64,000 bases of DNA from Streptomyces sclerotialus (GTDB lineage: Bacteria; Actinomycetota; Actinomycetes; Streptomycetales; Streptomycetaceae), in NCBI GenBank assembly GCA_000719105.1, contig JODX01000021.1:62001-126000 (forward strand), written 5' to 3'. How positions within the stretch are numbered: the stretch's first letter is position 1; each line of letters starts with the position of its first letter. Below, one piece after another: positions 2,769 to 40,304 of this stretch. Below the pieces are notes generated by a model. That model did no database searches and was not told where the DNA came from. It was given only the letters and a program-made list of their open reading frames with translations. The position numbers and the translations under genes were made by a program.

Positions 2769-3251
2769 TCAGAGAATGCGCCGCATCGCCCGGTGCGGTA
2801 TCCCGGCGTCCGGGAACTCCGGCCCGTACGCCACGTATCCCAGCCGCTCGTAGAAGCCCAGCGCATGCGTCTGCGCGTGCAGATCCACCGCCGCCAGCCC
2901 GCGCTCCCGCGCCGCGTCCTCGATGGCCCGCACCAGGGCCGCGCCGACGCCGAGTCCGCGCGCCTCCTTGGTCACGGCGAGCCGCCCGAGGGACCCCACC
3001 GCCGGGTCGCCACCGGTCTTCGCCGCGGCCGCCTCGCCGGACAGCAGCCGGCCGGTGCCGAGAGGCGTCCCGTCATCACGGACGGCCAGTACGTGGACGG
3101 TGTCCGCACCGGCGTCGTACGCGTCGTACTCGAGGTCCTCCGGCACGCCCTGCTCGGCGACGAAGACCTCCTTGCGCACCACGAAGCACGCCTCGCGGTC
3201 GGCGCTCTCGTCGGCTATGCGCACCAGGTACGACGGAATCGGGGAGCTCAT
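2769..3251 (-). CDS. GNAT-family N-acetyltransferase
   Basis: The 160-residue protein has the GNAT fold order. It has an N-terminal strand region ([28 protein letters not shown]) and a central acetyl-CoA-binding segment, in which [19 protein letters not shown] matches the R/Q-x-x-G-x-G/A motif. A C-terminal [14 protein letters not shown] element is typical of YjaB/ElaA-type acetyltransferases. The start codon overlaps the stop codon of rluD by 4 nt, so the two are probably translated together. The acceptor substrate is unknown. The family call is safe; the ElaA-like label is an inference from the N terminus. Confidence 0.9.
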
Positions 3252-36942: not shown

Positions 36943-37737
36943 ATGGACGAGGCGGCGGGGGCGGGGACGACCGACGGGGTGGCCGTCACGGCCGACGGTT
37001 TCGGGCTGAAGGGGCCGCGCGGCTGGGTCTTCCGGGGCGTCGGGTTCCGCGCGGAGGCCGGCTCGCTCGTCACGATCGAGGGACCGTCGGGATCGGGCCG
37101 GACGTGTCTGCTGCTGGCGCTCACCGGCCGGATGAAGTCCTCGGAGGGGCACGCCACGGTCGGCCCGCACCGGCTGCCCCGCCACCTGGCGGCCGTCCGC
37201 CGGATCAGCGCGCTCGCCCACGTGCCCGGCGTCACCGATCTCGACCCGGCCCTGACCGTCGGCGAGCACCTGCGGGAACGGGCACTGCTGGAGCGGCGGT
37301 TCGGCGGCTCCGTACGCGGCTCGCTGCGCGGTCTCCTCGGCCGGTCCGGCGACGGACCGGCCGAGGAGGCGCGGCTGCGCGTCGACGGCGCCCTGGCCGC
37401 CGCCGGCCTCGACCCGGACGACCTGCCCAAGGGCTCCCGTACCGCCGTGCGCGACCTCGGACGGCTGGAGGCGCTGCGGCTGTCCGTGGCGCTGGCACTG
37501 ATCGGGCGGCCCCGGCTGCTCGGTGTGGACGACACCGATCTGAAGCTCTCCGACGCCGAACGGGAGCAGGCGTGGGCCCTGCTGGAGTCCCTGGCCGCGT
37601 CCGGGACCACGGTGGTCGCGGTGTGCAGCGAGGCCCCGGAGGCGGCGGCCGGTGCCGTTCGCGTCGCGACCGTCCCCACCCGTACGACCGACGACAAGGA
37701 GACGGCGGATGCGCTCGCCGAAGCTGGCCGCGCTTGA
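36943..37737 (+). CDS. ABC-type ATPase with degenerate catalytic motifs
   Basis: The 264-residue protein has the ABC ATPase layout: a Walker A loop (IEGPSGSGRTCLLLAL, about residues 46-61), a helical segment and a Walker B-like LLGVDDTD. Three key elements deviate. Walker A has Arg where Lys is expected (GSGRT), no LSGGQ signature is found before LRLSVALALIGRP, and the residue after the Walker B Asp is Asp instead of Glu. Such proteins often sit beside YhgE/Pip membrane proteins in Streptomyces. It may hydrolyse ATP poorly or only bind it. It overlaps the Pip gene by 29 nt. Confidence 0.8.
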   Translation: MDEAAGAGTTDGVAVTADGFGLKGPRGWVFRGVGFRAEAGSLVTIEGPSGSGRTCLLLALTGRMKSSEGHATVGPHRLPRHLAAVRRISALAHVPGVTDLDPALTVGEHLRERALLERRFGGSVRGSLRGLLGRSGDGPAEEARLRVDGALAAAGLDPDDLPKGSRTAVRDLGRLEALRLSVALALIGRPRLLGVDDTDLKLSDAEREQAWALLESLAASGTTVVAVCSEAPEAAAGAVRVATVPTRTTDDKETADALAEAGRA

Positions 37738-39697
37738 GCTCAGGCGGTTCGGCAGGGGAAGGCTCCCGCGCGCGGCGCTGGCCTCGCTCCTGCTGCTGCC
37801 CCTGCTGTACGGCGCCCTGTACCTGTGGTCCTTCTGGGACCCGTACGGCCGGCTGGACCGGGTGCCCGTGGCCCTGGTGAACGACGACAAGGGGACGACG
37901 GCCGACGGGGAGAGGCTCACCGCGGGCGACGACATCGCCGGCCGGCTGCGCGACAGCGATGTCTTCGACTGGCACGAGGTGAGCGACGAGGACGCGCGCG
38001 CGGGTGTCGAGGACGGCACGTACTACCTGTCCCTGACCATGCCGTCGGACTTCAGCGAACGGATCGCCTCCAGTTCCGGAGACTCCCCCGAGACGGGCGC
38101 CCTCCAGGTGCGGACGAACGACGCGAACAACTACATCGTCGGGCAGATCTCCCGGACCGTGTTCGCCGAGGTGCGCACGGCGGCGTCCACGAAGGCGTCG
38201 CGGTCGTTCCTGGACCGGATCTTCATCTCGTTCTCCGACCTCCACGACGAGACCCAGAAGGCCGCCGAGGGCGCCGACGACCTCGAGGGCGGAATCGGGA
38301 AGGCCGAGCAGGGCTCCAAGGACCTCGCGGACGGGCTCGCGGACGCCAAGGAGGGCAGCGGCGACCTGGCGGGCGGCCTGAAGCGGCTCGACAGCGGGGC
38401 CGGTGACCTCCAGGAGGGCGCCGCGCAGGTCGCCGTGGGCACCCGGGCGCTCGCCGGCAAGGTGGGCGGCGCGGCGGACCAGGTGCGGCCCTTCCTGAAG
38501 GAGAACGGCGCGACGATCGCCGACACCGCGAACCTGGTGGCCGACTCGGCGGGCGTGATCCGCGGCCACCTGGACGCGTTCGTGAAGACCGCCCCGGTCG
38601 CGGCGGGCGGCACCCGTACGGCCGCCGAGGCGCTCGACGACGTCCACGCCAGGCGCTGCACGGAACCCGCCGTGCCCGACCCGGCCTGCGACGACCTGAA
38701 GAAGGCCAGGGACGCGGCGGCCGACGCGGCGGAGCTCGCCGCGGACGTCGACACCGTGGTGCGGGACCACGACGGCGATATGAAGGCCCTGGACAAGGAC
38801 CTGGCGACGCTCGAACGGCAGGCCCGGGCCCTCGCCGAGGCGGCGCCCCACCTCTCCGAGGACCTCGACGCCGCCGTGGCGAAGGTGAACGCGCTGAACG
38901 AGGGCGCCGCGCAGGTCGCCGAGGGCGCGAAGACGCTGCACACCGGCCTCGGCACGGCCCGCGCCGGAGCGGTGGACCTGGACACGGGCGTCGGTGAGCT
39001 GAAGACGGGTGCGACCGACCTCGAGGGCGGCCTGTACAAGCTGGCCGACGGCTCCGGGAAGCTCGCGAGCGGGCTGCACGACGGGGCCGGCAGGATCCCC
39101 GACTACGACGAGGACGACCGCGACCGGCGCACCGACGTGATGGCCGACCCGGTCCGGCTGGCCTCCGGCGACCTGCACAAGGCGCCCAACTACGGCACCG
39201 GTTTCGCCCCGTACTTCATCCCGCTGTCGCTGTGGGTGGGCGCGATGGTGGCGTACATGCTCATCCCGCCGCTCAACCGGCGCGCGCTCGCGGCGGGCGC
39301 CTCGGCGTGGCGGATCGCGCTGGCGGGCTGGCTCCCGGTGGCCGCCCTGGGACTGCTCCAGGTGACCGCGCTGATGGCCGTGCTCCACTGGGCGGTGGGT
39401 CTGGAGATGACCCGGGCGGCCGGGACGGTGGGCTTCCTGTTCCTGGTGACGGTGTGTTTCGCGGCGCTCGTGCAGTGGCTGAACGCGCGTTTCGGAGCGG
39501 CGGGCCGGATCCTCGTCCTCGCGTTCCTGATGCTCCAGCTGACGTCGGCGGGCGGCACGTATCCCGTGCAGACCAGTCCTGGCTTCTTCAACGCCGTCCA
39601 CCCGTTCCTGCCGATGAGTTACGTCGTCGAGGCCCTCAGGAGGCTCATCACGGGCGGCGGTCTCGGCCCGGTCTGGCAGGCGTGCGCGGTGCTGGCC
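37709..39697 (+). CDS. YhgE/Pip-family membrane protein, 3' end lost at adapter junction
   Basis: The 663 residues that remain start with a membrane helix (AALASLLLLPLLYGALYLWSF) and the YhgE/Pip N-terminal domain (VPVALVNDDKGTTADGERLTAGDDIAGRL). A long extracytoplasmic coiled region of 11-residue-like repeats follows (GSGDLAGGLKRLDSGAGDLQEGAAQV). Five or so C-terminal helices begin at FAPYFIPLSLWVGAMVAYML. The family includes the phage-infection protein Pip and is related to ABC-2 permeases; its substrate is unknown. The ATG has AAGGAG 7 nt upstream. The reading frame runs into adapter sequence at 39698, so probably a few tens of residues are missing. Confidence 0.85.
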
Positions 39698-39731
39698 CTG
39701 TCTCTTATACACATCTCCGAGCCCACGAGAC
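39698..39731 (+). other. Illumina Nextera adapter sequence (assembly artefact)
   Basis: All 34 bases match the reverse complement of the Nextera read-2 transposase oligo. It starts with the 19-bp Tn5 mosaic end CTGTCTCTTATACACATCT, and the other 15 bases (39717-39731) are the synthetic tail. Read through, it encodes the peptide SLIHISEPTRL on the plus strand and SRGLGDVYKRQ on the minus strand, both familiar adapter-derived contaminants. The sequence on either side is therefore not truly contiguous. Confidence 0.98.
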
Positions 39732-40304
39732 TCCGAGGCCGCCGTCACCCTCATCGCGGAACAGGGGTTCTCCGCCACCACGGTCGACGAGATCGCCGAG
39801 CGCGCCGGAGTCGCGAAGGGCACCGTCTACTACAACTTCGCCAGCAAGTCGGTCCTCTTCGAGGAACTGCTCCGGCACGGGGTGGGCCTGCTCACCGCCT
39901 CCCTCCGGGAGGCGGCCGAGCGCACGGCCGGGGAGGGCGGCAGCAGGGTCGACGCGCTGGACGCGATGATCCGCGCCGGGCTGGTGTTCATCGACCGCTA
40001 CCCGGCCTTCACCCAGCTCTACGTGGCCGAGCTGTGGCGCACCAACCGGGCCTGGCAGTCCACGCTGCTGGTGGTGCGCCAGGAGGCGGTCGCGGTCGTC
40101 GAGGGCGTGCTGCGGGAGGGCATCGACCTCGGTGAGCTGAGCGAGGAGCTCGACATCCCGCTGACCGCGGCCGCACTGGTCGGCATGGTCCTGGTGGCCG
40201 CCCTGGACTGGCAGGCGTTCCAGCCGGAGCGCTCCCTGGACGAGGTGCACGCGGCACTGTCCCTGCTGCTCCAGGGGCGGGTGAGCGGCGCCGGCAGCCG
40301 TTAG
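39732..40304 (+). CDS. TetR-family transcriptional regulator, 5' end lost at adapter junction
   Basis: The 190 in-frame residues contain most of the TetR DNA-binding domain: EAAVTLIAEQGFSATTVDEIAERAGVAKGTVYYNFASKSVLFEEL, including the recognition helix GTVYYNF. A helical ligand-binding domain follows, ending in LLLQGRVSGAGSR. The start codon and the first part of helix 1 are missing because the gene is interrupted by the adapter. Its likely target is the palindrome at 36910-36923 in front of the ABC/Pip operon, which it appears to close. Ligand unknown. Confidence 0.88.
   Translation, partial: SEAAVTLIAEQGFSATTVDEIAERAGVAKGTVYYNFASKSVLFEELLRHGVGLLTASLREAAERTAGEGGSRVDALDAMIRAGLVFIDRYPAFTQLYVAELWRTNRAWQSTLLVVRQEAVAVVEGVLREGIDLGELSEELDIPLTAAALVGMVLVAALDWQAFQPERSLDEVHAALSLLLQGRVSGAGSR

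Follow-up and report, generated by a model that had tools for sequence, protein, structure and literature searches.

The question raised by this locus is how a short stretch of DNA, identical to part of a sequencing kit, comes to stand between two genes of Streptomyces sclerotialus, and whether it belongs to the chromosome or only to the assembly. The window considered here is a 64-kb stretch of a single contig (C21:62001-126000, the whole contig being 224,728 bases), in an assembly of 7.02 Mb in 92 contigs. The features on which the argument turns are the following.

37709..39697, plus strand: YhgE/Pip membrane protein gene, 3'-truncated (TIGR03061/TIGR03062)
39698..39716, minus strand: Tn5 mosaic end, 19 nt, the Nextera transposase end, adjoining the Pip flank (exact match)
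39717..39731, minus strand: Nextera read-2 arm, 15 nt (exact match)
39732..39734, minus strand: TCC, of which 2-3 bases are probably the start of the i7 index and not chromosome (TAC in 100 of 100 relatives)
39735..40304, plus strand: TetR-family regulator gene, 5'-truncated (PF00440)

Identity of the insert

A scripted letter comparison shows that the Nextera read-2 oligo, which consists of the 19-nt mosaic end and the 15-nt arm, gives on reverse complementation exactly the 34 bases at 39698-39731. A reading of this DNA from its letters alone (hereafter the sequence-only reading) had made the same claim, and the match is without exception: all 34 of 34 bases are shared with the Nextera (tagmentation) read-2 adapter, and the only difference lies in the 2-3 probable index bases behind it. 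At the base composition of the window, the number of copies of such a 34-mer expected by chance in 7.02 Mb is 3e-15. The mosaic end, with up to 3 mismatches allowed, occurs once in the 64-kb window and in none of 100 shuffles, and the insert has a G+C content of 53%, compared with 72% for the window. The same oligo is printed as an Illumina adapter in PMC8938589. That the 34-base insert is sequencing-kit DNA, an artifact of laboratory and assembly and not biology, is confirmed.

Flanking genes and the missing DNA

The insert follows a YhgE/Pip gene in which TIGR03062 is matched to position 189 of 208, and it precedes a TetR-family gene whose translated part (P0001) serves here as a query. Just upstream of the Pip gene, with a slight overlap, lies an ABC-transporter ATPase-like gene (PF00005, 36943-37737). 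P0001 and the last 100 Pip residues were placed on 109 relative loci, made up of 29 relatives among the best 30 places (the remaining one being the window itself; 139 of 150 genomes gave a match) and 80 named contigs, these being the best 80 of 421 relatives of P0001 and all Streptomyces. Both queries were placed in 100 of the 109 loci, always in the same order, and the other nine, with no Pip match in the stretch examined, were left unmeasured. The 100 loci yield 99 distinct interval sequences and are not independent, because some may be one strain represented twice.

Between the homologues of positions 39697 and 39735 these 100 relatives have 170-249 bases (median 203), as against 37 in the window, and neither a mosaic-end 14-mer nor the read-2 arm occurs in any of the 100 intervals. 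An alignment of the flanks with other Streptomyces, which the sequence-only reading had proposed, thus returns natural, adapter-free DNA between the genes, and it sets bounds on the length of the lost DNA, which that reading had called unknown. In 99 of the 100 relatives Pip runs 31 residues past the break, the sole relative lacking this tail (L134) being a partial match over 58 of the 100 Pip residues; 694 aa, the size of 96 of the 119 Pip relatives among the protein-collection matches listed, fits the 663 residues here plus 31. On the TetR side, one has to go 15-27 codons upstream of the break to reach the nearest in-frame start codon in all 100 relatives, and among the listed relatives of P0001 the N-terminal-side matches start at residue 2 or 3, never at residue 1. 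At the break itself every one of the 100 relatives has TAC (Tyr), followed by GAG (89) or GAA (11), where the window has TCC.

Judged from these comparisons, this assembly lacks the C-terminus of Pip, the DNA between the genes, and the start of TetR, and the adapter replaces roughly 170-250 bases between neighboring genes. The earlier claim that it stands in place of the end of YhgE/Pip and the beginning of TetR is borne out by the 31 further Pip residues and the upstream TetR start in the relatives. Because the order is the same in 100 of the 109 relative loci, Pip and TetR are the right neighbors, with only the DNA between them wrong. Of the earlier statement that two real genes had been artificially joined, the part that concerns the junction DNA therefore stands, whereas the genes themselves are true neighbors in those loci.

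Other copies in the same assembly

With 2 mismatches allowed, the mosaic end is found four times in the whole assembly, each time without a mismatch: two copies are internal (the window and C34:10850) and two lie at contig starts (C26:13-31 and C28:16-34). The start of C26 (L002:1-31) carries the read-1 arm minus its first 2 bases and the start of C28 (L003:1-34) the complete read-2 oligo, in both cases with the outer side directed outward; the internal copy on C34 (C34:10850-10883, that is, L004:1501-1534) again has the full read-2 oligo. The exact read-2 arm occurs in this genome only beside three of the four mosaic ends, and when the assembly was searched with 14 nt of the mosaic end, no further partial copies were found.

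The adapter on C34 splits a single gene, both sides of which match Asparaginase (PF00710) in a profile search. Profile positions 1-32 are matched before the adapter, at 21.0 bits and so just below the curated cut-off of 22.5, and positions from 84 on are matched after it. For this comparison 37 of 199 genomes matched, and 30 of 40 listed places were taken, one of which was the genome itself. The relatives at this site are distant (50-67% identical). Of the 29 relative loci, 14 could be measured, two of them through poor matches (E values 0.38 and 0.011), and these 14 have intervals of 144-162 bases, versus 36 bases on C34, which is thus 108-126 bases shorter; the other 15 loci, without a match to the short first half, were left out of the measurement. 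From the comparisons with relatives at C21 and C34, both internal joins appear to reconnect true neighbors across a short unassembled stretch. Similar letters (RDTRVILEHL and RDARIILEHL, by eye) flank the asparaginase gene at L004:2-1324 and about 2780-3019, perhaps as paralogues.

Adapters in other assemblies

Within the genus, the mosaic end is present in 20 of 295 genomes, this one included, at 1 to 36 copies each, and a reversed-pattern control gives 0 in all 295. Thirty-two adapter loci from the 20 positive genomes, a subset of all places found there, were examined: in 28 the adapter, its outer side outward, is no more than 100 nt from where the contig ends, and the remaining four (L001, L004, L008, L024) are internal. 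It counts against read-through at the present site that an internal adapter needs an extra joining error. The two internal copies from other assemblies of the genus are these.

L008:1501-1519 (G095:C25): internal adapter, with index and partial P5/P7 tail
L024:1501-1519 (G283:C1): internal adapter, with index and partial P5/P7 tail

In both, the index and the start of the P5 or P7 tail are followed by chromosomal DNA once more. That the arm runs on into index and P5/P7 tail in several congeners gives the pattern expected of read-through. At L032 from 1501 (G220:C146), a slightly differing adapter is followed by P7-like letters and, at the contig end, by a run of A then G of the sort that comes from two-color sequencing chemistry.

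As background outside the genus, an IMG/VR sample of at least 120 stretches with matches was considered. Here 121 of 123 matches have their outer side no more than 47 bases from the end of the stretch, which may not be the contig end, and two lie further in (L236 and L291). In the former (L236:4953-4986, IMGVR_UViG_2767802081_000001) the 34-mer is mid-contig, possibly at another adapter-mediated join.

Errors of this kind have a precedent. Of 15,657 reference assemblies in MGnify, 1,110 have been reported to show adapter enrichment (p < 0.01), compared with about 157 expected by chance, and the enrichment is concentrated at contig ends (PMC11536531). That study counts a TruSeq 12-mer in MGnify genomes, and its main text does not contain the word Nextera, whereas the adapter here is from Nextera and two of its copies lie inside contigs. 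What is seen here is an error of this known kind, with an adapter from another kit. A literature search found no paper naming SLIHISEPTRL and none giving the 34-mer together with "misassembl".

Probable index bases behind the arm

Behind the arm the window has only TC or TCC before the TetR reading resumes. In congener loci L017, L020, L021, L025, L026, and L031 the arm is followed by an 8-nt index and P7 letters; in L021 and L027, from two other assemblies, TCCTGAGC and P7 letters come after the read-2 arm; and in L022 the arm is followed by TCC at the contig end. TCC also comes next after the internal adapter on C34. Because all 100 relatives have TAC at this point, TC or TCC at 39732-39734 is probably not chromosomal, the last C being one that could be genomic for the same reason, and the artifact, with these bases counted in, is probably 36-37 nt long. 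TC/TCC fits an i7 index such as TCCTGAGC, which may be tied to the library of this genome; since neither an exact P7 15-mer nor an exact TruSeq 13-mer occurs in the assembly, the assignment to an index depends on 2-3 bases in each of two places.

Origin of the junction

We favor, with a probability of about 0.985, the explanation that adapter read-through survived in an assembly of short reads. The end of a Nextera fragment would lie within the Pip gene, near 39697; beyond it the read would have gone on into the mosaic end, then the read-2 arm, and last the opening 2-3 bases of the i7 index. Presumably left untrimmed, the adapter would then have lengthened the contig at its end. The true Pip-TetR sequence was not assembled, possibly because coverage failed in this G+C-rich DNA, and during scaffolding or gap closing the TetR contig may then have been set directly behind the adapter end. 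This explanation is directly supported by the identity of the adapter, the copies with both arms, the outward orientation at contig starts, and the natural order and spacing in relatives; the adapter would be absent from the chromosome itself. The sequence-only reading, too, had taken the insert for an assembly artifact, and it is upheld by the contig-start copies with both arms in the same assembly, the patchy occurrence across species, and the natural DNA of the relatives.

An additional suggestion of that reading was that a 7-nt repeat, CTCCGAG, may have misled the assembler; as a rival explanation, the repeat would have caused sequence to collapse. The repeat is indeed where it was said to be, inside the adapter at 39715-39721 and at its right end at 39731-39737 (the window holds 11 forward and 13 reverse copies), and this placement speaks for the idea. 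We consider it unlikely all the same: a repeat of 7 bases is short by the standards of assembly graphs, the right side of the C34 join lacks the motif, and in the 100 relatives, where TAC precedes GAG or GAA, CTCCGAG is absent between 60 bases upstream and 10 downstream. The repeat appears to be made by the join itself and is not needed for the mechanism; being a product of the join and absent in the relatives, it is probably not the cause. Less probable again is a wholly wrong join, in which the adapter linked two contigs that are far apart in the chromosome. Adapter-mediated joins need not follow gene order, as a matter of general reasoning, but Pip and TetR are adjacent and at natural spacing in 100 of the 109 relative loci, and the pieces brought together on C34 belong to a single asparaginase gene; given the same order in relatives, we reject the idea that the genes are wrong neighbors and regard it as very improbable.

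An insert ending in a mosaic end also recalls a real insertion into the Streptomyces chromosome, whether of a Tn5-type transposon or of a mosaic-end laboratory construct, since hyperactive Tn5 systems employ this 19-nt mosaic end, which is exact here. Such an event would, however, be expected to leave two inverted ends with cargo, and the window and indeed the whole contig have one mosaic end; nor was a 9-nt target duplication found, the three possible right borders giving 4, 1, and 5 of 9 identities. Lacking a second end on the contig and a target duplication, this insertion is rejected. The mosaic end is moreover joined to an Illumina sequence, the read-2 arm, whose exact form this genome has only beside mosaic ends; further copies, with one arm type and the other, stand at contig starts; and the natural IS50 ends differ at 3 and 4 of the 19 positions, so that we hold a true insertion to be extremely improbable. 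To the notion that the chromosome truly carries adapter DNA at several places, through uptake and joining of library fragments or through engineered insertion, we assign next to no probability.

Spurious proteins

Two reading frames cross the junction.

37709..40135, plus strand: spurious fusion ORF of 808 aa (827 aa from an earlier GTG at 37652), made up of Pip, SLIHISEPTRL, and out-of-frame TetR DNA
37232..39823, minus strand: spurious ORF across the adapter, which on translation contains SRGLGDVYKRQ

The best protein-collection match to the junction region is the 808-aa fusion itself (P0003). None of the other 119 matches listed, out of 2,442 in all, spans more than 62% of the junction query or contains SLIHISEPTRL. 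The sequence-only reading had called proteins across the site with SLIHISEPTRL or SRGLGDVYKRQ spurious; both peptides do occur in the translated ORFs, and the fusion has found its way into a protein collection. Fusions and tails with either peptide are to be distrusted. The consequences are for curation only, namely two genes broken here and an asparaginase gene elsewhere in the assembly. Because the scan flagged 20 of the 295 genomes of the genus, a one-line check for the mosaic-end pattern suffices to find such errors.
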